From a virus: a stretch of DNA of 21,243 bases. Positions 3,005-15,650 of this stretch are shown here, piece by piece (position 1 is the stretch's first letter; every line of letters starts with the position of its first letter). The translations under genes and the position numbers were made by a program. The notes under the pieces are model-generated. The model was not told the origin of the DNA. It saw only the letters and a program-made list of their open reading frames with translations, and did not search any database. Location: positions 1 through 21,243 of IMG/VR virus record IMGVR_UViG_3300030108_003449. One strand, written 5' to 3'.

Positions 3005-4228
3005 ATGTGGGCTTCTGCTATTCTTGATGATGATTTTGAGATTGTCAAAGAGGATAGTATATCTTTAGAAGAAGAGGAAGTGGTCAAATATCAATTTCCT
3101 ATCAACGGCGATGGTTGGTTTGAAACAACTTTAGGTTGTTCTGCTGATAGTTTTGTTAAAAGATTTAGAAAAGCAAGAAGACATAATAAGGACGATAAAA
3201 GTGAAATAGACAGTTTTATCAAAGATATTAGAACAATCAAATCTTTAGAGACAGAAATGACTCTACATAATTTATCATGGGGTAAAGACTTACACGATGT
3301 GATGAAACAATTAGGTCTAAGTGATAGACAACTAAAAAGTTTAAGAAAATTTGGAGATAGTAGACAGATATCTTTACTTCAGGCTTGTAATTTGTGGAAA
3401 AACGCAGAACGTACTCTAAAAATGTTAGACCAACATGAAGATGTATGGGGTAAAGAAGAGGAACAGGCTTGGGCTACCGCTATGGGTAATAGGTCTGCTG
3501 CTAGAAAAATGTGGTCTAGTACATTAAATCAAATAGATAAACTCACTAAAGCGGAGTTGGGTTACTTAGAATTTGTAGTAAATGAATTAAAACAAAAAGG
3601 TCCTATGAGACCTTCTGACATGAAAGTGAATTTACATGATGCTGGATTGTTAAAAAAATCTTTTACGGACAGAAAGTTAACTGCTCTCTTGAATATGTAT
3701 GGTGAGGAATTAGATATTATCAAAGGTGCTGAGAGAGGCACTTACGTTTTAATTTCTACCCAAGGACTAATTATGAAAGATGTATGGGCTTATAGTGCTG
3801 GTTTTTTAGATGCTGATGGTTATATCACCATAACAGAAAGAGGAGAACCTCGGGCTGGTATGATTGCCACTGGTGCTAGAGGTAAAATTCATTGTGAAGA
3901 TTTGTATAAACATTTAGAATGTGGTGTGTTACAATTGGACAATAAGGTATACAAGGAGTCTCAAAGAAGTCAACACAGACTTCAGTTTTATTCTAAAAAC
4001 GATTTAAGAAAATTATTGAATGGTGTATCACCTCATCTAAAAATGAAATCAATGCAAGCAAAATGTGTTTTAGCATATTTAGATGAAAAAGACCCTGTTA
4101 AAAAAGAAGAGATTAAAAGATTAGTTAGATATGAAAATTGGAAAGATGATGCTAAGAAATCTCGTGAGTTACTAGAAGGGTGGGGTATTGACGAAGATAC
4201 TATAGGTAAATATAGAGAGGGATTATAA
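3005..4228 (+). CDS. Helical/winged-helix protein fused to a LAGLIDADG endonuclease domain
   Basis: The 407-residue product starts at ATG 3005 behind AAGGGG (2992-2997). Residues 1-175 are acidic and then helical, with no family I recognise. Residues about 178-252 look like a winged helix (helix, helix, then a GTYVLI strand). Residues 258-360 carry a single LAGLIDADG motif, SAGFLDADG at 264-272. They also show the family's later features: an IATGARGKIHCEDL strand-helix, a QFYSKNDLRKLL segment, and the typical PHLKMKSMQAK ending. D271 is the predicted metal-binding acid, so the domain looks intact and should work as a dimer. A helical tail follows (361-407). The enzyme class cleaves long DNA sites and is usually selfish. 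Here there is no intron or intein around it; it is a normal operon member between terminase and portal (the stop shares one base with the portal start). A role in genome cutting or packaging is inferred. Confidence 0.85.
   Translation: MWASAILDDDFEIVKEDSISLEEEEVVKYQFPINGDGWFETTLGCSADSFVKRFRKARRHNKDDKSEIDSFIKDIRTIKSLETEMTLHNLSWGKDLHDVMKQLGLSDRQLKSLRKFGDSRQISLLQACNLWKNAERTLKMLDQHEDVWGKEEEQAWATAMGNRSAARKMWSSTLNQIDKLTKAELGYLEFVVNELKQKGPMRPSDMKVNLHDAGLLKKSFTDRKLTALLNMYGEELDIIKGAERGTYVLISTQGLIMKDVWAYSAGFLDADGYITITERGEPRAGMIATGARGKIHCEDLYKHLECGVLQLDNKVYKESQRSQHRLQFYSKNDLRKLLNGVSPHLKMKSMQAKCVLAYLDEKDPVKKEEIKRLVRYENWKDDAKKSRELLEGWGIDEDTIGKYREGL
3776..4084 (+). other. LAGLIDADG homing-endonuclease-like domain
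   Basis: Domain-level annotation of residues 258-360 of the 407-residue protein. The AGFLDADG core carries both Asp residues, and the downstream strand-helix and Lys-containing segment match the single-motif family. It is not flanked by intein splice residues or disrupted exons. Confidence 0.82.
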
Positions 4229-5970
4229 TGGCTGAGGACGATGCAGGGGAGAGTAGGATTAGTAGATTCTTATCAGCATTGGCTAGTCCATTCAGAAGAA
4301 GAACAACTCCACAACCTCAAATGCCTTTGTATACCACTGGTATTCAAGAGCCTGTTTTAGCACAAGGTATTACATTACCAGCATTGTATGCGGTTACACA
4401 TGAAAATTTAATTCTTAGAACTGTAACTTCTAAATTAAATCAAGAAATATTTAGACGTGGCTATTATTGGGAAAAAAAGTTTCGTGTAAAATGCGTAGAA
4501 TGTGATGAAGAGTTCCAACATGAGGTAGAAGAATGCCCCACTTGTGGAGGAGAGGTAAGAGAGCCTGACCCGAATGATGTTGTGTATGGTAAATGGTTAT
4601 TAAGCCAAGAAAACTCTATGGAGCAATCTTTTTTACAAGTATTGTACGAAATAGAAAGAGACTTGAATATAGTTGATGATGCTTTTCTAATATTAATAAA
4701 AGAGTATTATGTAGATGAAGAAACGGGTGATATTCAATTTTATCGTGTCAAAGAAGTAGTTAGAGGAGACCCTATATTTATGCGTATTATCGCTGATAAA
4801 CGTGGAGTTAGAGGTGGAAGATATCGAATCTGTAGGCTACATAGAGACCAAGTGGCGTATCCCGGTCAAGACCACGCTTGTCCTATTTGTGGCTCAGATA
4901 TGGTAGATGCTCATTATGTTAACATGGCTGGCTCGGGTAAAAATCAATATTTTACAAAAGGAGAGGTTCTACATATTTCTAAATATAATCCAAGTAAACT
5001 GTATGGTAAAAGTCCTGTAAACACATTATGGAGACAAGCGATGACCTTGACTGCCATGGACAATTATATGTACACTGCATACCAAAAACGTAGAAGCCCA
5101 AAGGGTATAATTTCCGTAACTACTGATAATTTAGAATCAATGAAATCTTTTTGGAAAGGTGTTGATGAAAAACTCGAAAGAGACCCACATTACATTCCTA
5201 AAGTTGGTATTGAAAGTCAAACTGGTCGTGGGGGAGTCAATTGGATTAAGTTCATGGACACTCTCGAAGAGATGCAATACATCGCTGTGCGTGATGAAAT
5301 AAGAAATAGAATAGCAGCATTCTTCGGTGTATCTTCTATTTTTATGATTGATAACGGTAAATCAGGTGGACTGAATAACGAAGGCTTACAGATTCTTGTG
5401 ACCAACAGAGCAGTTGAATTTGGACAAAAAATTTACACTGAGGTTTTATTCCCTCGTCTTCTGAGAGAAATGGGTATCAGTGATTGGAAGATAACATTGT
5501 ATCCAAATGAAGAAGAAGATGAAATCACTAGATTACGTAGAGATGAAATGGAAGTCAACTTAGCGCAAAGAATGCAAATGCTTGGATATAAACCTGAATT
5601 GATGGAAGAAGGTGAAAGAGATGTTAGGTTTACTTACAAAAAAAGGTTTACTTACAAAAAAATAGATGAACAGGCACAACCTCAAGCGCAACCTCAAATG
5701 CCCATGAGAGGCGGTATGCCTCCAAATGCACCGGGTGGTAGAAACGCAGTCCCACCGGGTATGGGCATGGGTGCAATGATGCCCCCTTCACAACCGGGTG
5801 GAGAGGGTCAAGGAATTAGAACTCCAAGAAGTCCAGCAAGGCCACAACAAAGAAGTTCGGGTGGTATAGGTTCTCCTATTTCTAACGTTCAACAAAGAGG
5901 TTTGCCACCCACGATACCCCAACAAAATTCACAAGCATTGATGGATTCAAGAAGGTTACGAGGTGCGTAA
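4228..5970 (+). CDS. Portal protein with two inserted zinc-ribbon-like clusters
   Basis: This forms the dodecameric ring at the capsid vertex through which DNA passes. The call rests on position directly after the terminase group and on the sequence style. Residues 45-80 resemble the portal N-terminal region. GEVLHISKYNPSKLYGKSPV (246-265) is a classic portal segment. The helix containing YIAVRDEIRNRIAAFFGVSS (351-370) is typical of the wing/stem. Two cysteine clusters are unusual: C89, C92, C103, C106, and C202, H205, C218, C221. Both look like metal-binding knuckles inserted in the N-terminal half. Residues 467-478 are a tandem RFTYKK duplication. The last 100 residues are low-complexity Pro, Gln, Met and Gly. 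The start overlaps the previous stop (TAATG). At 580 residues it is longer than many portals because of the insertions and tail. Confidence 0.9.
   Translation: MAEDDAGESRISRFLSALASPFRRRTTPQPQMPLYTTGIQEPVLAQGITLPALYAVTHENLILRTVTSKLNQEIFRRGYYWEKKFRVKCVECDEEFQHEVEECPTCGGEVREPDPNDVVYGKWLLSQENSMEQSFLQVLYEIERDLNIVDDAFLILIKEYYVDEETGDIQFYRVKEVVRGDPIFMRIIADKRGVRGGRYRICRLHRDQVAYPGQDHACPICGSDMVDAHYVNMAGSGKNQYFTKGEVLHISKYNPSKLYGKSPVNTLWRQAMTLTAMDNYMYTAYQKRRSPKGIISVTTDNLESMKSFWKGVDEKLERDPHYIPKVGIESQTGRGGVNWIKFMDTLEEMQYIAVRDEIRNRIAAFFGVSSIFMIDNGKSGGLNNEGLQILVTNRAVEFGQKIYTEVLFPRLLREMGISDWKITLYPNEEEDEITRLRRDEMEVNLAQRMQMLGYKPELMEEGERDVRFTYKKRFTYKKIDEQAQPQAQPQMPMRGGMPPNAPGGRNAVPPGMGMGAMMPPSQPGGEGQGIRTPRSPARPQQRSSGGIGSPISNVQQRGLPPTIPQQNSQALMDSRRLRGA
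5626..5661 (+). repeat. Perfect 18-bp tandem duplication in the portal gene
   Basis: Two identical adjacent copies of aggtttacttacaaaaaa encode RFTYKK twice. The duplication is in frame and lies between the structured part and the Pro/Gln-rich tail, which suggests a recent slippage event in a tolerant linker. Confidence 0.95.
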
Positions 5971-6378: not shown

Positions 6379-6711
6379 ATGAGTGAAGACACATCTGTTA
6401 CAGAGCGTCTAATGAACACATTAATTTCAAAAATGGAATCTATGGATTCTGACTTACAAGTAATAAAAAATGAAAATCAAAAATTACGTTCTATGATTAA
6501 TAATCCCGCTACTTTACTACGTAAAGCAGGATTCGTATCAGCGGTTACACCTCTCAGTGAAGATGTTTCTAACGATGCTTTTAGAGGAGAAGAGGACTTA
6601 TTAATCAAAGGACAACCAAGTTATTCGAATGAAGAAATTCATCTTATGAGTTGGGAAGAAATACACGAAATGGCTGAACAAGCCAAATCCACAGAGGAGG
6701 TAAAAGCATGA
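6379..6711 (+). CDS. Coiled-coil protein with a scaffold-like C-terminal motif
   Basis: The 110-residue product begins at ATG 6379 after AGGTGAT (6369-6375). Residues 8-42 form a predicted coiled coil (LMNTLISKMESMDSDLQ and onward). Residues 90-99 read MSWEEIHEMA, nearly identical to MSWEEVHQLA at the C-terminus of the protease/scaffold protein encoded at 13051-14460. In both proteins the motif follows a coiled coil and a Pro-containing linker. This suggests both bind the same partner during procapsid assembly, perhaps the capsid protein. That reading is inference; the similarity itself is seen. The stop overlaps the next start (ATGA). Confidence 0.82.
   Translation: MSEDTSVTERLMNTLISKMESMDSDLQVIKNENQKLRSMINNPATLLRKAGFVSAVTPLSEDVSNDAFRGEEDLLIKGQPSYSNEEIHLMSWEEIHEMAEQAKSTEEVKA
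6646..6675 (+). other. C-terminal MSWEEIHEMA motif, copy 1
   Basis: Ten residues (90-99 of the 110-residue protein) that match the scaffold C-terminus encoded at 14407-14436 at seven of ten positions, with conservative changes at two more. The DNA is also similar, including TTGGGAAGAA in both. Confidence 0.85.
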
Positions 6712-7424: not shown

Positions 7425-7435
7425 GGGTGAATAAA

Positions 7436-10400
7436 ATGCGAGAAGACGCTATAGATGTCTATAAAAGACACAGACATGATTTAATAAAATCTATTTATGA
7501 TGGATTAGATTTTGAAAATAATATAGCATATTATAATTTAGCATTAGAAAACCTAGAAAGACAAGGCTATGGTAATTTTGATAATACTTGGGAAGATTTA
7601 GTTTGTAAAGCAGTTTCTAAATCTAAAGCAGATTTCCAAGCAGGTGCAGAATTACAAATTGCTCCTAATCAAGTATGGGATGATAGAGGAGTGGAAAGAA
7701 AAATACACGAAATGAGCGGTGGTAAACCCTCTTATAAAAATGTAGAAGGGGGTCATTATAATGATGCTAATCCTTGGGATGAATCACATGACCCTTTATT
7801 GTTTAGAAATATAGTAACAGGTAGAACCGCTAGAGATGAAATGTTGTATAGTTTTTATTTACCCTCTGCACCGGGTGAAAAAAGTTTAGCGGAGGAATAT
7901 GCTGAAATAGAAAAAAACCATGAAAATCATCATACCGATAAACAAAACCCTTTTTACACAGGTATACTTACAATTGATAAAGTAAAAAGATATCCTTACT
8001 CGGGTAAAACAGGTAAATCTTTGTATGAAGTGTATAATGAACATTTTAACAATTGGAAAGAAAATCCTGATAACAAAGAACAAGTAGAAGAGATAAAAGA
8101 AAAATATTCAAACGAGGATATACAAGATTTAGAGTTAAGAAAAGCACATTTTGACCACACTCGTGTGAATGACTGGGAGTCAGATGAAACTCATTTTCAA
8201 ATCGACCCCTTAGAAACTCTCTCTGATAAAGAAAAAGTAGAGTTAGCCCTAGAGGGAGGTGGGGATTTTCCACCTGAATATTATCATAAAAAACCTGTTA
8301 AAAAGGGATTAGGTTTTGAGGACTATTTATTTGGTTTAGAATTTAGAGACCCTAAAGAAAGATATGAAATTCATAAACATATACACGAAAAAGGCACCGA
8401 TTCTAAAGATGCTCAAATTATTAAATTATCTAGTGGAGAACGTGTCAATATAGGTAGAGTAAAAAATGATACAAAAATGAGACTTCAAGCGCTTAAGTAT
8501 CACTACATAAGAGATGAGGGTAAGCATGGGCCTAATATGAACACCACAGTGGAGGATATAGATAAAGATACAAAAGGTGGGATGGATGCTCACACTCAGT
8601 ATGTTTTAAAAAATGCTATAATGGAACATCCTGAGTACGCTAGTTTATTAGGTAAAACTAATCAATTACTGGGATTTAAAGACCACAGTGAAAGAATTAA
8701 AATTTTGGAAGAGCAACTAAAAAGTAAATCATTATCCCCCAACGAGGAATATGACGCTGAAAAAGAATTAAGAGATTTAAAAGAGGAACAGGGCTTAGAA
8801 CATTTACCTGCTATGGATAAAAGTTCAGCAAAAAAATATGGTGGACCTACAAGTTTTAAAGATAAAGATTCTGATAGTAATAATAATCAATTGAGTATAG
8901 GTGATTTTAAAAGATTTTTAGGTTATGACCCTGAGACAAACGATGTATTGGGCGAACACGCTTTATTCACTAATTTTAAAGAGCCTTTATTGAGTGAAGA
9001 ACATTTGAAAGAGATACTTAATTCTGCTACTAACAAAGCGGGCTCTTTGGCTATGGCTAAACCAATTAGAAATGCTCATAATCAAATATTCGGTGGTTCT
9101 AATGGACCTAAGGAAGAAGATATACCTGAAGATGAAAAACATCTTTATAGAATAAAAAATGGACAAAGAGTTGGTTTAGGAGAGGCTTTTGAATACGCTC
9201 ATCATTTCTTAGGAGGACATGGAAGAAATTGGGCTAATTATTTAAAAAATTGGCATGATACTTTACCTAAAAATGAAGATGGTTTTAGTATTCTAGGTAG
9301 AGTTAACCCTGATAACGAGATGTTTGAAGGTAACCCTGAAACAGTTGGTTTGTTTGGACACGTAATACCTGAAGAACAAACAAAAGGTGATATTCTAAAA
9401 TATTCCAACCCTAAAAGTATAATATCTCAGTTTAATCATTCTACTCCTGTAGATTTAATAAACGGTAAAGCGACAGGTAGACCTCGAACTTTAAAGAACA
9501 ACACAACACATGGTATGACCTCTAAATTCCCACGTTGGTCGAACAAGGTTGCTAACTGGGGTGATGGTGATTTTCAAAATTTTACTGGTGTCAAAGATAA
9601 AAGAGGAGCCGTAGGGAGGGGTATTGATGGTAATACAGTTGGAACCTATTTCAGTGCAAACCCTTTAACCGCAATAGGGAGTAAAGGAAGACCACTTTCT
9701 AACACTGAAAATAAAGCAAGAATTGCGTATAGAAGAATAACCACTCTTGGTAGACATCATCCTCCCCATAAACCATTCTCTAAAAAATATTTAAAATATA
9801 GCGATTATGATAAACATCCCGATAATTTAGCACATGGGGACAGTGTCTTAGAATATAGATTAGGACAAGGTCATATTGCTGGTACAAAAGGAACTGCTGA
9901 AAGAAGTAGAAGGAGAGAGGTTGGATTTACTGATGCTGAAATAGAAAGAATGACAGTTTTAGATGAAATAATCAACACTGGTAAAAAGCCCGATACAACA
10001 TTACCTAGTGGTAACACAGTGGTAGGTGAAAAATTATCAGAAGATGAATTAGAAAAATTCAAAGAAGAATTAGAATATCTTGAACAGAAAAAACAATTAA
10101 AAGAGGCTCAAACATTTCAACCCAATAACATACAAGTAGGTCAGATGCAACGTGAAATTGAGAAAGCAGAAATTGCAGATTTAAACGCTATAACGGAAAT
10201 GGCTAAACTATTAGTGCCTTTAGCATTAGAAAAAGACCCCGATGCTTTTAATCCCGATAATCCTCAAAAATTCAGTGATAATGTCGCTAGATTATTTTAT
10301 GATGCTAATCGTGGATTGAAGATATTACCACATGATTATCATAAACTCACCACATATGGTTATAATGGTGATTACAAAGAAAGGGATAAAAGTATATCTG

Positions 10401-12982
10401 AAGGTTTAGAAGGTTTAAATCCTCATCATACATTACAAAAAGTGTTACAACACATGGGTGTAGAAATAGAGCCTGATTCTGTTAGTAGTAATGAGGGTGT
10501 TGAAACCATTCTTTCTGCTCTTAATTTACCTAACGATAATATTCATATCAAGCATATCAGAGAATTAGCAGACAAATATTCTGATAGACCATTCAGAGTT
10601 TTAACTAATGCTCAAATTATGAGCACAGGGTTACCTATACATCCTAGACAAGATTTTTCTGAATATACCGAAATTGAAAATCATCATGAACATATAGATG
10701 GTTTATACGATAAATTTGATGAAAAGAGAAAAGAGCAGTTAGAAGGCATGGATGAGGATGAAAGAAGAAGATTCATGAACAGAAAAAGTAGTAAAGGTGG
10801 GTTTGCTCAAAGTAAATATTTCAAAGATATTTCTATGATTCCACATTTTTTACGTAGTGCTGTTAAAAATCAGTTTGAGCCTTACGGATTATCTTTTCAT
10901 GGTTTTGATGAAAACACATTTGCTAGGGATAAAATAAAAGGCACAGGGGAAAAGGGTGAGATTAAAACACCTATTAAACGGGCAAAAGCGCACGCACATG
11001 GTATGGTTGTGTTGAATCCTGATGCGGTTACTGAAACAGATAACGTTGTGATGGAAGGCTCAATGGTGAACAAACCTCGATTTATGGATAATGTACCAAT
11101 AGGTCCCGCCAATAGAGCAGATTCTAGTGCCACCGTGGGGGCTTACTATAATGGTGGTATGATGAATACAGGATACGGTGGTAGGGTCCCTACTATAGGA
11201 TTTGAATTCAGTGGGGGTAAACCAGTAGTGGGCACTCAACAGTTTGAGCAATTTTTACATACTCCTTCTCAAGAACAAATGGAAGATGTATTTGGAAAAG
11301 ATACAGTAAATCAATTTTTATCATCAGGTTTCGAAGCACCCATAATTACAACTAATTATTATGGGCTAAATGTTATGGGTGAGTCTAGGCATGATATCGG
11401 AGTTGATAGTAGTGCTGGAAGTATCCCAACTGACATATCAACTAGCGACCCCAGTGAAACATTAATGGTGATGATGAATCCTGATGCTTTGTTAAAAACA
11501 GATAAAACAAGACCACCTCCTATATTACCTATGCACAGAATCTTTACAATAAAAGATTTTGAGTGTTTAAGAGGTTTTAGCGGAGGATGGGTGGTAACCC
11601 ATTATTATGATGGTCAAAGAATGTTAATAGAAAAGAAAAGATACAAGGTTTCTGCTCATGACGAAAACGGAGATGATGTATCTTTATCGGGTGATGATAT
11701 CAAACAACTAAAAGCACTATGTGAAAGAAATTATATCGTAGACGCTATCAAAACTAAAGATGAAATACATATTTTTGATATTATAGAGTACGATGGTACA
11801 ACAGTTGCTGATATGGCTACATCTGAAAGGCTTAAAATTTTAAGAGGACAATTCGATAGCCATGAGCATGTATTAGTCCCCGGTCCACATAATACTCGTA
11901 TTACAGACGAAGAAGGTTTAGATTTAATTGTAACAGATTTACAAAAAACATATCCTCAACTATTACTTAGAGATATTAAATCTACTTACATGAAAGGAGA
12001 AAGAAGACATCCTAAGTGGTTCTTATTAAGAAAAAATAAAGATATATCTTTCATTATATTAGATGTTAGAGGTAAAGGACCTTACACTTATAGATTAGGA
12101 GCAGGACCTGTGGATGAAGAAAACCTCGGAAATAGAGGTGTAGAATATGAAGATGATTTCTATCTTGACGTTGGCACCGTAAAAAGTCCTAAACCTTTCC
12201 AAGAGGGAGATATAATATCTGTATCTGTATCGGGTGTGAAAGAGAAAAAGAAAAATGGTAGAATAATTTATGATGTTACTATGTCTAAAATTAAAGGAGA
12301 AAGTGATGTTGAAAGTCCTGCTAGTTTAGAAACTTTAGGATTACTCGCTAAATCACATCCAGTTATACAAGTTCCTTACGATTTAGAAATAGATGGTAAT
12401 AAACTTAAGATTTCATTTAATGAAATAGATGATGTTATGTATAAAATGGATGAGGTACAATCAGGCACATGGATTCATTCTCCTCATTCCGCTTTAGGTG
12501 ATTTAAAGAAAAACAACTATTCTTTGAGATTAGCAGAAAGTCTTAGACCCGTATGGTCAACCGCTGTTGCTTTATTAAGAAAAGGAGTAACCAGTAAACC
12601 ACGTTCTATGGCGGAAGAAAAGAATAGAAAACAGTCAGAAGATAACTCAGCGGGTATCATAGATGCTGATGCTGAAGATAATGTTATGAAACCTAAAGAT
12701 GAAGAAAAACTAAAAACCATGGTTAAGGCTTTAGAAAAAATAGTTGATTTATTTGATAGAGTTGAAAAAGAACAGATGTTCAATACCACAGGTGCTCGTG
12801 GGTTAGGTATAGACGTGGGAGCACAAATAGAGTCACCTAGAGGCCCTACAGAACTCACCGCAGAGCAAAGTATGCCTGACTGGGACATGTTAGACCGCCC
12901 AACCGAAGACCCCGAGAAAGAGTACCCTCATATGAAAAATAAGAAAAAGAAGGATAAAAATGCAGAGCAGTCTAGCGTTTAG
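7436..12982 (+). CDS. Giant 1848-residue putative virion protein with a degenerate DNA-ligase-like region
   Basis: A single uninterrupted frame. ATG 7436 is chosen because GGGGTGA (7424-7430) precedes it by 5 bases; GTG 7427 lies within that site. Residues 1-90 are helical. A long hydrophilic, largely unrecognised region follows, with coiled-coil stretches near 415-455 and 865-930. Two similar strands ending in NPDA (N1194 and N1348) precede a region that resembles an ATP-dependent DNA ligase core. It shows YYDGQR (1390-1395) at motif I, FDIIEYDG (1447-1454) at motif IIIa, LLLRD (1509-1513) at motif IV and WFLLRK (1528-1533) at motif V. An OB-fold-like region covers about 1578-1622. The motif I lysine is Tyr (Y1390) and other catalytic residues are changed, so activity is doubtful. 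A C-terminal coil (about 1750-1780) and a Lys-rich tail close the protein. Position between portal and protease suggests a minor or internal head protein. Confidence 0.9.
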   Translation: MREDAIDVYKRHRHDLIKSIYDGLDFENNIAYYNLALENLERQGYGNFDNTWEDLVCKAVSKSKADFQAGAELQIAPNQVWDDRGVERKIHEMSGGKPSYKNVEGGHYNDANPWDESHDPLLFRNIVTGRTARDEMLYSFYLPSAPGEKSLAEEYAEIEKNHENHHTDKQNPFYTGILTIDKVKRYPYSGKTGKSLYEVYNEHFNNWKENPDNKEQVEEIKEKYSNEDIQDLELRKAHFDHTRVNDWESDETHFQIDPLETLSDKEKVELALEGGGDFPPEYYHKKPVKKGLGFEDYLFGLEFRDPKERYEIHKHIHEKGTDSKDAQIIKLSSGERVNIGRVKNDTKMRLQALKYHYIRDEGKHGPNMNTTVEDIDKDTKGGMDAHTQYVLKNAIMEHPEYASLLGKTNQLLGFKDHSERIKILEEQLKSKSLSPNEEYDAEKELRDLKEEQGLEHLPAMDKSSAKKYGGPTSFKDKDSDSNNNQLSIGDFKRFLGYDPETNDVLGEHALFTNFKEPLLSEEHLKEILNSATNKAGSLAMAKPIRNAHNQIFGGSNGPKEEDIPEDEKHLYRIKNGQRVGLGEAFEYAHHFLGGHGRNWANYLKNWHDTLPKNEDGFSILGRVNPDNEMFEGNPETVGLFGHVIPEEQTKGDILKYSNPKSIISQFNHSTPVDLINGKATGRPRTLKNNTTHGMTSKFPRWSNKVANWGDGDFQNFTGVKDKRGAVGRGIDGNTVGTYFSANPLTAIGSKGRPLSNTENKARIAYRRITTLGRHHPPHKPFSKKYLKYSDYDKHPDNLAHGDSVLEYRLGQGHIAGTKGTAERSRRREVGFTDAEIERMTVLDEIINTGKKPDTTLPSGNTVVGEKLSEDELEKFKEELEYLEQKKQLKEAQTFQPNNIQVGQMQREIEKAEIADLNAITEMAKLLVPLALEKDPDAFNPDNPQKFSDNVARLFYDANRGLKILPHDYHKLTTYGYNGDYKERDKSISEGLEGLNPHHTLQKVLQHMGVEIEPDSVSSNEGVETILSALNLPNDNIHIKHIRELADKYSDRPFRVLTNAQIMSTGLPIHPRQDFSEYTEIENHHEHIDGLYDKFDEKRKEQLEGMDEDERRRFMNRKSSKGGFAQSKYFKDISMIPHFLRSAVKNQFEPYGLSFHGFDENTFARDKIKGTGEKGEIKTPIKRAKAHAHGMVVLNPDAVTETDNVVMEGSMVNKPRFMDNVPIGPANRADSSATVGAYYNGGMMNTGYGGRVPTIGFEFSGGKPVVGTQQFEQFLHTPSQEQMEDVFGKDTVNQFLSSGFEAPIITTNYYGLNVMGESRHDIGVDSSAGSIPTDISTSDPSETLMVMMNPDALLKTDKTRPPPILPMHRIFTIKDFECLRGFSGGWVVTHYYDGQRMLIEKKRYKVSAHDENGDDVSLSGDDIKQLKALCERNYIVDAIKTKDEIHIFDIIEYDGTTVADMATSERLKILRGQFDSHEHVLVPGPHNTRITDEEGLDLIVTDLQKTYPQLLLRDIKSTYMKGERRHPKWFLLRKNKDISFIILDVRGKGPYTYRLGAGPVDEENLGNRGVEYEDDFYLDVGTVKSPKPFQEGDIISVSVSGVKEKKKNGRIIYDVTMSKIKGESDVESPASLETLGLLAKSHPVIQVPYDLEIDGNKLKISFNEIDDVMYKMDEVQSGTWIHSPHSALGDLKKNNYSLRLAESLRPVWSTAVALLRKGVTSKPRSMAEEKNRKQSEDNSAGIIDADAEDNVMKPKDEEKLKTMVKALEKIVDLFDRVEKEQMFNTTGARGLGIDVGAQIESPRGPTELTAEQSMPDWDMLDRPTEDPEKEYPHMKNKKKKDKNAEQSSV
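11531..12310 (+). other. DNA-ligase-like nucleotidyltransferase plus OB-fold region, probably inactive
   Basis: Residues about 1366-1625 of the giant protein. The order and spacing fit an ATP-dependent ligase: the motif I strand, a short motif III (V-D1436-A-I in place of a DGE-type sequence), motif IIIa FDIIEYDG, the ERLKILRG helix, motif IV, a Lys/Arg-rich loop, motif V, then an OB-fold. Structural residues (DG-x-R, FD, W, K1533) are kept. The expected nucleophile Lys is Y1390, and the motif III and IV acids are absent. It reads as a retained fold without chemistry, or a strongly diverged enzyme. Confidence 0.7.
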
Positions 12983-13050
12983 GAATAAAAATGAAAGGAG
13001 AATCGATGCCGCTTTATTAATATAGGTAAACAAGCGAACAGGTGACTAGT

Positions 13051-14460
13051 GTGCTTCGACAAACCAGTGCAGACAGCAATATCCAATTGCTTAAATCTAG
13101 TAATGACCTCATTGTCGCAGGATATGCCTCAGTGGAGTTAGTAGATAAACAAGGAGATATGATAACCCGCAAAGCGTTAAAAGAAGCATTCAAAAAATAC
13201 ATGGAGGAACCAAAATACCGAAACGTGCAACTAGCGCATTCAAACATACAAGTCGGTGAAGTGATTCCAAGTTATACAGATAGTGAAGGGAGGTTATGGA
13301 AGAGCGAAGTTGATGACGCAGGAATGTTTGTCGTTGTTAATCTTAGAACTGATATTGAAAAGGCTAGAGAAGTAGCAGCAGAAATCAGAAAAGGAAGTCT
13401 AAGAGGATTCAGCATTGGAGGACAAGCATTCAAACGGGTAAGAAAAAGTGATGCAAAACACGGAGATTACCAAGAAATAAGCAAACTAGAACTTCACGAA
13501 ATCACAATCTGTGAAAAAGGGATAAACCCCGAAGCAACATTTAGAATACTAAAAGAAGATAAAGAAAACAATAAGGTGAAAAAAATGACTGATGATGTAA
13601 TGGAACAAATGACAGACGTATTAAGTCGTCTTGAAGGTCGATTAGACTCCATGGAAAAAGGAGAAATTCCTAAGGGCTTGAAAGAGCACATGGATAAGAA
13701 AGACAATAAAGACAACAAAATGGATGAAAAAATGGAAGATAAAATGGACAAAGGTGTTCATGCTATGGACGATGATAAAAAGGAAGAGAAAGATGACAAA
13801 AAGAAATCTGACGAATATTCTGACGTTATCACATCCGAATATCTTGACTGGATGGAGAACACTCTAAAAGGTGCAGGAGTAGACATAGCAGGAGCAAGGC
13901 AACACTTTGATGACCTTGCTAAAGCAAACTTAGGTTCTACACCTGAATCAATTGGTGATGGAGCAAATTACTTTGCTGGACAAGCACCGGGACGTGTTCA
14001 AGAAGGCGGTAACCCTTCAACAAACGCTGTTGGTAAATTAAACAGTGGAAAAGGTAAAGAAGGAGCAGTAGAAAAATCAGAATTCTTAGTACCAAGTGAT
14101 GTAGATGGCTCTCAAATAGAGAATGCATATGAAGTTTACAAAGCAGCAAAAAGAGAAGAAGAATTCCGTGCTACATTAGAAAAACAATTTGAAGGTAGAT
14201 ACCAACAAGAAATGACACAAGAATATCAACAAGCAGAAGCAGCAGCATTCGATGCTCGTGGACCACTTGCTGAAATTCAAAAAGCAATTAGTTCATTATC
14301 AGAAAGAATCGATAACATTGGTTCTGATGAAGGCGTAACACTCCAAAAATCAGTAGGAGTACCTACAAGTGATGTTGTAGTACCATCAACACCTGATATG
14401 GCAAACATGTCTTGGGAAGAAGTACACCAATTAGCAGGTAGTGTTTTCAGAGGAGATTAA
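13051..14460 (+). CDS. Prohead maturation protease (XkdF/S78-like) fused to scaffold
   Basis: This directs procapsid assembly, then cleaves scaffold and itself. GTG 13051 is chosen because AGGTGA (13040-13045) precedes it by 5 bases, the operon's usual spacing; GTG 13042 lies inside that site. The 469-residue product has a protease domain at about 15-170. It opens with IVAGYASVELVDKQGDMITR and carries H63 in QLAHSNIQVGEV and S121 in GSLRGFSIGG, the expected His and Ser of this family. Residues 175-260 are highly charged (Lys, Asp, Met repeats). Residues 260-430 are Gln/Glu/Ala-rich with coils near 355-400 and 405-423. The C-terminus carries MSWEEVHQLA (453-462). The gene lies directly before the capsid gene, the classic order. 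An internal start at codon 179 probably yields a free scaffold. Confidence 0.9.
   Translation: MLRQTSADSNIQLLKSSNDLIVAGYASVELVDKQGDMITRKALKEAFKKYMEEPKYRNVQLAHSNIQVGEVIPSYTDSEGRLWKSEVDDAGMFVVVNLRTDIEKAREVAAEIRKGSLRGFSIGGQAFKRVRKSDAKHGDYQEISKLELHEITICEKGINPEATFRILKEDKENNKVKKMTDDVMEQMTDVLSRLEGRLDSMEKGEIPKGLKEHMDKKDNKDNKMDEKMEDKMDKGVHAMDDDKKEEKDDKKKSDEYSDVITSEYLDWMENTLKGAGVDIAGARQHFDDLAKANLGSTPESIGDGANYFAGQAPGRVQEGGNPSTNAVGKLNSGKGKEGAVEKSEFLVPSDVDGSQIENAYEVYKAAKREEEFRATLEKQFEGRYQQEMTQEYQQAEAAAFDARGPLAEIQKAISSLSERIDNIGSDEGVTLQKSVGVPTSDVVVPSTPDMANMSWEEVHQLAGSVFRGD
13575..13587 (+). promoter_or_regulatory. Internal ribosome binding site and start codon within the protease gene
   Basis: GGTGA at 13575-13579 followed 5 bases later by ATG 13585, in frame at codon 179. 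This is the same sequence and spacing used at real gene starts such as 7436 and 13051, and it falls exactly at the protease/scaffold boundary. Confidence 0.6.
13585..14460 (+). CDS. Nested scaffold protein from an internal start
   Basis: Predicted 291-residue product, in frame with and sharing the C-terminus of the protease. It would contain the charged linker, the coiled-coil region and the MSWEEVHQLA end, but no protease domain. Many tailed phages make such a nested scaffold; lambda C/Nu3 is the known example. The support here is the strong internal ribosome binding site and the domain boundary. Expression is inferred, not shown. Confidence 0.55.
   Translation: MTDDVMEQMTDVLSRLEGRLDSMEKGEIPKGLKEHMDKKDNKDNKMDEKMEDKMDKGVHAMDDDKKEEKDDKKKSDEYSDVITSEYLDWMENTLKGAGVDIAGARQHFDDLAKANLGSTPESIGDGANYFAGQAPGRVQEGGNPSTNAVGKLNSGKGKEGAVEKSEFLVPSDVDGSQIENAYEVYKAAKREEEFRATLEKQFEGRYQQEMTQEYQQAEAAAFDARGPLAEIQKAISSLSERIDNIGSDEGVTLQKSVGVPTSDVVVPSTPDMANMSWEEVHQLAGSVFRGD
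14407..14436 (+). other. C-terminal MSWEEVHQLA motif, copy 2
   Basis: Residues 453-462 of the protease/scaffold, seven residues before its end. It matches copy 1 at 6646-6675. C-terminal helices of scaffolds commonly bind the capsid protein, so this is a candidate capsid-binding element. Confidence 0.85.
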
Positions 14461-14463
14461 ATT

Positions 14464-14482
14464 AAATAAAGGAGATGAAAAA
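14464..14482 (+). promoter_or_regulatory. Strong translation leader of the major capsid gene
   Basis: The 19 bases aaataaaggagatgaaaaa occur here and again, identically, before the decoration gene at 15667-15685. They contain AAAGGAGATGA, a long match to the 3' end of 16S rRNA, in an A-rich unstructured setting. This probably drives high output of the two most abundant capsid proteins. Confidence 0.75.
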
Positions 14483-14483
14483 T

Positions 14484-15650
14484 ATGGCAAGAAATTACGT
14501 AAGAACAGTAACAGATATGGAGAGGTACTACTATGGTGCCGGAAACGCAATGGGGTACACATACACTGGTAGCGAGTTATTAAAAGCAGACTCACCAATG
14601 TTATCCACAACTGCTGGTACATACCAAGCAATTTATGGACGAAAAGTGTGGTCTCAATTAAACCAAGAATTTAATGCATTCAGCATTCTACCTAAGAAAC
14701 CTTGGGATAGAAGTGGATGGAGAGTAATCACTGCAAAACCTAATGCAGGTACATTACACGGTGGAGTAGCAGAAAATGCAACACTACCTGAAACAGTGAA
14801 ACCAACTTTCCAACATGTAGCAGCAAAACCAAAAACAATTGCTCACACATTTGATATGTCAGAAACTGCAATCTTCCTTGCTGATAAGGATGATGGTATG
14901 GGAGACATCCGTTCAGTATTAAAAGAAGAAATGGGTAAACACCACGCAGAAATGATTAACAAAATGCTACTAACTGATGTAGATACACCAGCAGGTAACA
15001 ACTATGAATCACTTGACAGAATCACAGCAGCATTCCTTGCTGACGCTGATGCAAAAACTGGTATGGACAATCTCCACAGTGATTTAAGTGCTGATACAGA
15101 CTTAGATATCTACAGTATTAGCAGAAGTGCAAACTCTTGGTCAAATGCAGAATTGAGTAATAATGTTGTAAGTAATACAGCAACTGATAGAGTTCTTTCA
15201 TTAGACCACTTAGATGATTTATTCCAAAGAGTTTGGGAACGTGGAGGTAATCCAAAAGTTATCTTAACAGGATATGACACTTTAATGAGATTACAACAAT
15301 TACTACAATCTCAACAAAGATTTATGGAAGAAAAAAGAGTAACACCTACATACAATGGAGTAAAGGGTGTACCGGGTATTGAAGCAGGATTTATCGTTGC
15401 TACATATAACGGAGTACCAATCATTCCTTCCAAGGATGTACAAAAAGATACTCTAAGTAGAATGTACTTATTAGACACAGATTACATGTACTTCAGCACA
15501 GCAATTCCAACACAATACTTTGAAAGCGGAATTGAAACTGGTGACCCATTCGCAATTAACAGACTAGGTCAAGAAGGACTTTACAGAACAATGGGAGAAA
15601 TATGGACAACTTTCTTCGGAGCACAAGGACAAATCCGTTCTTTAAAATGA
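14484..15650 (+). CDS. Major capsid protein, HK97 fold
   Basis: The shell protein, many copies per virion. ATG 14484 is chosen over the in-frame ATG 14475, because 14475 lies inside the AAGGAGATGA binding site; the next gene uses the same layout. The 388-residue product follows the protease/scaffold gene, as expected. Features of the fold can be seen: a helical N-arm, then the AIYGRKVWSQLNQEFNAFSI and WRVITAKPNAGT segments with the GGVAENATLPE loop typical of HK97-type proteins of archaeal and bacterial viruses. The spine-helix region follows (IRSVLKEEMGKHHAEMINKM), then a P/A-domain core including DHLDDLFQRVWERGGNPKVI. No clear long cleaved N-terminal delta domain is present, which fits the separate scaffold. 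Codon use leans to gca, aca and aac, unlike the giant gene. Confidence 0.92.
   Translation: MARNYVRTVTDMERYYYGAGNAMGYTYTGSELLKADSPMLSTTAGTYQAIYGRKVWSQLNQEFNAFSILPKKPWDRSGWRVITAKPNAGTLHGGVAENATLPETVKPTFQHVAAKPKTIAHTFDMSETAIFLADKDDGMGDIRSVLKEEMGKHHAEMINKMLLTDVDTPAGNNYESLDRITAAFLADADAKTGMDNLHSDLSADTDLDIYSISRSANSWSNAELSNNVVSNTATDRVLSLDHLDDLFQRVWERGGNPKVILTGYDTLMRLQQLLQSQQRFMEEKRVTPTYNGVKGVPGIEAGFIVATYNGVPIIPSKDVQKDTLSRMYLLDTDYMYFSTAIPTQYFESGIETGDPFAINRLGQEGLYRTMGEIWTTFFGAQGQIRSLK

Follow-up and report, generated by a model that had tools for sequence, protein, structure and literature searches.

Why should a giant protein encoded among the head genes of a tailed virus contain the core of a DNA ligase from which the catalytic residues have disappeared? 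This question is raised by the window analysed here, a 21.2-kb IMG/VR virus contig, whose open reading frame (ORF) 7427-12982 harbours such a domain, in the following referred to as the window copy. Based on our findings we consider it very likely that an archaeal/eukaryotic-type ligase core was captured, lost its catalysis and has been kept as a non-catalytic binding module of a giant head-module protein. The protein and its parts are located as follows:

7427..12982, + strand, giant head-module protein of 1,851 residues with a GTG start and an alternative ATG start at 7436
11507..12034, + strand, pseudo-ligase nucleotidyltransferase (NTase) core, residues 1361-1536, from PF01068, profile matches in the Protein Data Bank (PDB), AlphaFold2 and VIA
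12035..12304, + strand, OB-fold domain, residues 1537-1626, from model strands and ligase superposition, absent in one clade
12647..12931, + strand, conserved C-terminal region, residues 1741-1835

All residue numbers are counted from the GTG at 7427; those of the initial annotation of this DNA were counted from the ATG at 7436 and are hence 3 lower.

The relationship to ligases is evident from sequence profiles as well as from structure. PF01068 (DNA_ligase_A_M) matches the whole giant protein with E 2e-4, the isolated domain with E 8e-6, and 61/61 diverse homologues, and several NCBIfam models of ATP-dependent DNA ligases match the domain, far below their curated cut-offs. When the family profile was compared with the PDB, Thermococcus DNA ligases, including 4eq5, came first (E 4e-6 to 5e-5); in the 4eq5 alignment KYDGAR lies opposite YYDGQR and the segments of motifs I, IIIa, IV and V are in register. 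The AlphaFold2 model of the domain, built with 61 divergent sequences, has a predicted local distance difference test (pLDDT) score of 89 and a predicted template modelling (pTM) score of 0.82, the pLDDT being 47 if 21 close homologues were used instead. Foldseek retrieved DNA ligases with this model (E down to 1e-14), VIA-align yielded Z scores of 19-20 to archaeal ligases, human LIG1 and LIG3, and the NTase core alone superposes on DNA ligases with a root mean square deviation (rmsd) of 2.3-2.4 Å over 168-171 residues. The OB domain of ligases is movable, which probably explains the high overall rmsd obtained with this domain included. As in active ligases, the NTase domain is joined to an OB fold, which the initial annotation had anticipated as an OB-fold-like region and which is seen in the model and present in about two thirds of the copies. 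VIA listed no match for model residues beyond ~290, i.e. for the post-OB segment, and the nearest BFVD model is A0A516LT18 (827 residues, 26% identity). Taken together, the ligase match is not due to chance and residues ~1361-1626 are the NTase and OB core of ATP-dependent DNA ligases, i.e. structure prediction and structural search, as recommended in the initial annotation, returned a DNA-ligase fold and not an unrelated one.

Is this core still able to catalyse ligation? We collapsed 205 loci to 103 distinct domain rows, 102 of which cover motif I. The relevant segments of the window copy are:

11603..11620, + strand, degenerate motif I, YYDGQR, residues 1393-1398, Y1393 at the lysine position, R1398 invariant
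11738..11749, + strand, degenerate motif III, VDAI, residues 1438-1441, Glu lost
11774..11797, + strand, motif IIIa, FDIIEYDG, residues 1450-1457, D1451 invariant, F variable
11843..11866, + strand, RGQFDSHE segment, R1473 and F1476 invariant
11960..12031, + strand, motif IV (LLLRD) and motif V (WFLLR), both degenerate, flanking STYMKGExRHPKW, which is specific to the family

The strings quoted in the initial annotation, i.e. YYDGQR, VDAI, FDIIEYDG, PQLLLRD and the Trp (its W1528, our W1531), are all present in the ORF. At the lysine position of motif I, Lys is found in 0/102 copies; the position is occupied by W (38), F (14), L (14), Y (13), H (11), M (6) or Q (6), and the Tyr whose fixation had been put up for inspection (Y1390, our Y1393) is thus not fixed. 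The Arg of KxDGxR, R1398, is invariant (102/102). The Glu of motif III is mostly replaced by I, V, T, M or L, giving DAI and DGI types, and relative to 4eq5 the stretch from motif I to motif IIIa is shorter by ~30 residues. In motif IV (PQLLLRD, residues 1510-1516) the Glu is not conserved and the Lys is mostly Arg, Lys being kept in a few copies. The WxKxK of motif V, the Trp of which is W1531, has become W-[FLVI]-[LVMI]-[LYM]-[RATQ], with L1533 and R1535 at the Lys positions of the window copy. The lysine reported as kept in the initial annotation (K1533, our K1536) was misassigned, as it lies outside the motif V lysine positions and residue 1536 varies among homologues. A conserved lysine substituting for that of motif I was sought among the homologues and not found. 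Hence, the features of an active ligase that are lacking comprise the motif I Lys, the motif III Glu, the motif IV Glu/Lys and the motif V Lys-x-Lys. In this superfamily, proteins deprived of the nucleophilic lysine do not become adenylated, and the domain would therefore be able neither to ligate nor to adenylate.

Catalytic loss might be an artefact of sequencing or a sign of recent decay, but this explanation was rejected on the basis of the 102 distinct copies and the low dN/dS. In 24 divergent full-length proteins, the others being 24-41% identical to that of the window, 45 columns are invariant, 28 of them in residues 1361-1536, 14 in the post-OB segment and 3 in the first 1,350 residues. 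For the same seven pairs of relatives dN/dS is 0.03-0.11 in residues 1361-1536 and 0.12-0.39 in residues 1-1350. The ligase domain is the most strongly conserved part of the giant protein and is under strong purifying selection, not decaying; with a ligase fold, catalytic residues missing in all distinct copies and this constraint, the term pseudo-ligase proposed in the initial annotation is well chosen. The invariant residues include H1370, R1398, D1439, D1451, E1525, H1528 and K1530, and the conserved segments specific to the family are HRIF, LRGFxGxW, RGQFDSHE and STYMxGExRHPKW. The OB fold is missing in one clade (25/61 rows), owing to a loss on a single branch that has 99/98 support and is recovered in all bootstrap trees, and the motif I lysine is absent on both sides of this split. 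As the OB fold was lost in one clade with the rest retained, the NTase core is the unit that is always kept.

The relatives of the giant protein mostly comprise 1,700-2,150 residues. A full-length family profile had no match in the PDB at E 1, and Pfam and PHROGs revealed nothing consistent outside the ligase domain in 24 full-length members. In line with this, residues 1-1350 (7427-11476) and the strongly conserved C-terminal ~95 residues (12647-12931) have no consistent Pfam, PHROG or PDB profile match. A tblastn search of the INPHARED phages with the giant protein gave no match at E 0.1, and 32 candidates picked by pattern from genome contigs of cellular species included 0 relatives, so that neither a provirus nor a copy in a cellular genome came to light.

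In which context does this protein act? The + strand of the window carries the head module of a tailed virus, from the terminase to the major capsid protein (MCP), with three small genes between the portal gene and the giant ORF:

1337-2863, + strand, large terminase
3005-4228, + strand, ORF with a homing-endonuclease-like domain
4228..5970, + strand, portal protein
13042..14460, + strand, prohead serine protease (S78)
14475..15650, + strand, HK97-fold MCP

The order portal, giant gene, prohead protease, MCP is near-constant among the relatives. Counting only distinct loci with sufficient flank, the portal gene lies upstream of the giant gene in 54/54 loci, the protease gene directly downstream in 60/64 and the MCP gene downstream in 64/64; as expected for a virion protein, the giant protein is thus encoded in the head operon beside portal, protease and MCP. 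The initial annotation had located the domain inside a giant putative head protein; the near-constant place between portal and prohead protease/MCP agrees with this, whereas presence in the virion is a prediction from the genes. Within the phage collection, the relatives of the window MCP are solely archaeal viruses, the best being HVTV-1/HCTV-5 (Druskaviridae) with 34-35% identity.

The neighbouring genes have features of their own. A 110-residue protein (6379-6711) and the prohead protease (13042-14460) share the C-terminal segment M[ST]W[ED]E[VI]Hx[ML]A, which is located 17-21 residues before the C-terminus and occurs in most relatives; it may be a helix that targets both proteins to the capsid or scaffold. 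In the product of ORF 3005-4228 the last ~110 residues match the HNH/LAGLIDADG-type homing endonuclease family phrog_5046 (E 6e-7) and are fused to ~250 residues without assignment; in a raw tally, uncorrected for flank length, this ORF is matched in fewer relatives than the other head genes. The portal protein (4228-5970) contains two CxxC...CxxC zinc-ribbon-like insertions (CVECDEEF...CPTCGG and CRLHRD...CPICG), for which the Zn-ribbon Pfam matches are weak.

Gene content strongly suggests that these viruses, which are abundant in the sea and belong to archaea, are magroviruses. Among the long relatives, PolB is present in 17/18 and a Cpn60/TCP-1-family chaperonin in 17/19, and 14 of those examined span 91-111 kb. 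The published magroviruses of Poseidoniales present the same picture (PolB, chaperonin, 90-110 kb; PMC5332604, PMC12999244, PMC10768690), and the long relatives combine features of Magrovirales, i.e. PolB, the chaperonin, a length of 90-110 kb and a Druskaviridae-related head module. PCNA (PF00705) was found in 0/19 contigs. As a PCNA sliding clamp is reported for the type virus of the Aoguangviridae (magrovirus clade B), whereas the published gene list of the Apasviridae (clade A) names no clamp, this absence fits better with clade A than with the Aoguangviridae.

This assignment bears on the replication machinery ascribed to magroviruses. An ATP-dependent DNA ligase figures among their replication genes in the profiles of the International Committee on Taxonomy of Viruses (ICTV) and in Xu et al. 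(PMC10768690, PMC12999244, PMC10160649), in the latter for almost all viral operational taxonomic units (vOTUs), and magroviruses are described as having a nearly complete replisome including this ligase and as almost independent of host factors (PMC10768690, PMC12999244). In our survey of 61 contigs, which includes several fragments and some near-copies and could overlook a ligase from a different family if highly divergent, PF01068 occurs outside the giant gene in 1/61 contigs (1/14 among contigs over 90 kb). This exception, contig G030, encodes the dead domain and additionally, far from the head module, a separate ligase with intact KFDGVR and FDGEL:

L208:342-1481, canonical ligase of 379 residues on G030 (contig of L145)

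As this ligase was detected, the search is able to see real ligases. An NAD-dependent ligase was found in 0/18 contigs. Since PF01068, save for G030, matches the giant gene only and an NAD-dependent ligase is absent, the published magrovirus "ATP-dependent DNA ligase" is probably the dead head-module domain in most genomes. If this is true, the notion of a nearly complete replisome fails for most genomes and magroviruses would depend on the ligase of the host.

How, then, might the dead core be used? In our preferred scenario the giant head-module protein of archaeal tailed viruses resembling magroviruses would have captured an archaeal/eukaryotic-type ATP-dependent DNA ligase core. This core would have lost its capacity for self-adenylation, probably ahead of the divergence of the sampled viruses, and would since then have been maintained as a binding module without catalysis. 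The giant protein may be a head-assembly or internal head protein, perhaps entering the cell with the DNA, and the rebuilt segments HRIF, LRGFxGxW, RGQFDSHE and STYMxGExRHPKW may form a docking surface. The chances are about even that the partner of the domain is a protein of the portal-capsid assembly, and DNA is a possible, somewhat less probable partner. We think that a protein is favoured because of the acidic charge and the loss of the OB fold: the net charge is about -2 for the window copy and on average about -9 over 61 copies, as compared to +12 for the canonical ligase from the same virus group, although the charge argument is weak alone, the whole giant protein being acidic. Two points weigh against our interpretation. 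The identity with the published ligase gene is based on gene order and not on the same accession, and the conserved R1398, H1370, H1528, E1525 and K1530 could mean an undiscovered activity or a retained nucleic-acid contact. It is rather doubtful that the dead ligase still recognises DNA, binding nicks or genome ends at packaging or after ejection and thereby shielding them or recruiting the host ligase. The ligase core fold, the OB fold in most copies and the invariant motif I Arg would be in line with such a role, and yeast Dnl4 loads at breaks even when catalytically dead (PMC3694833), but a domain of neutral to acidic net charge is ill suited to it, a whole clade has dispensed with the OB fold, which ligases need to close around DNA, while keeping the rest, and a sequence search gave no Pfam match to PF04675, the N-terminal DNA-binding domain of large archaeal/eukaryotic ligases, in the window or in 24 full-length homologues. 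The nick- or end-binding module envisaged in the initial annotation is thus disfavoured.

A purely structural role, e.g. as rigid β-rich spacer or capsid-lining module without specific ligand, is unlikely: it would suit a huge head-operon protein with a fixed position relative to portal and MCP and the varied bulky residues that replace those of the pocket, yet invariant R, H, E, K and D residues cluster in few segments, which points to a specific interaction, and the N-terminal 1,350 residues are far less conserved. Rebuilt chemistry, in which another lysine or a new set of His, Glu and Arg would catalyse nucleotidyl transfer or a different reaction, appears very improbable, as does the atypical enzyme that had been offered as an alternative in the initial annotation, support for which is limited to some new invariant residues. 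H1370, H1528, E1525, K1530, R1398, D1439 and D1451 are indeed invariant, but the catalytic positions of motifs I, III, IV and V are degenerate all together, the motif I lysine has no conserved lysine replacement, and K1530 is not new, since it matches the lysine before the motif V Trp in a Thermococcus ligase (KKWLKIK). Least probable of all, and in our opinion hardly tenable, is the view implied by the ICTV profiles and Xu et al. that this is a divergent replisome ligase which still works, given that no copy has the motif I Lys and that the gene resides in the head operon, away from PolB. Returning to the non-catalytic binding module, we see roughly equal odds for and against the wider proposition that a ligase core has become an essential non-catalytic capsid or packaging module, e.g. 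binding the portal-terminase complex or the packaged genome end, in an order of archaeal viruses that is widespread, and that most magroviruses, contrary to current descriptions, have no working ligase and depend on the host.

With the archaeal/eukaryotic ligase core (PF01068 and OB; Thermococcus 4eq5/3rr5/6wbo, LIG1, LIG3) the viral domain shares the NTase and OB fold, the motif order, xDGxR, the FDI of motif IIIa and the SxYxxG...W stretch that separates motif IV from motif V. In contrast to these ligases it has neither the motif I Lys, the motif III Glu, the motif IV Glu nor the motif V Lys pair, it is shorter between motifs I and IIIa, it has no OB fold in one clade, and it is embedded in a head-module protein of 1,850 residues. 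Since it is homologous to DNA ligases but without their defining catalytic features, we do not file it as a DNA ligase. The use of an NTase fold without catalysis has a precedent in the m3G-cap-binding domain of snurportin-1, which is a pseudo-guanylyltransferase. Snurportin-1 is a eukaryotic nuclear import adaptor, however, and the viral domain is linked to it by weak matches only (PF21974 in 10/61 copies, best E 0.0018), cap binding being unsupported.

In HVTV-1/HCTV-5 (Druskaviridae) large proteins are likewise encoded between the portal region and the prohead protease, but the equivalent slot is occupied by gp113 and gp115 ("zeta toxin"), which the giant-protein profile does not match at E 10; the head module of vir519 gave no match to this profile either. 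The HVTV-1 slot (L041:4146-12480) encodes a protein of 1,048 residues with an HExxH-like stretch and the "zeta toxin" protein of 1,313 residues, the C-terminus of which is ADP-ribosyltransferase-like by eye. The polyvalent proteins that phages inject with their DNA (PMC5512222) are also very large and encoded in the portal/head operon, whereas the giant protein has one recognisable domain, which is catalytically dead. In the open-licence papers searched we found no description of a ligase core that is dead throughout a family and at the same time forms the best conserved part of a giant head-module protein of a virus. Thus, fold and superfamily are known and what appears to be new is the arrangement of a dead ligase in a head-module protein. 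It is a clear-cut example from nature of an enzyme core taken into service by a virus head module, held under stronger constraint than the rest of a protein of 1,850 residues and offering defined invariant residues for testing.

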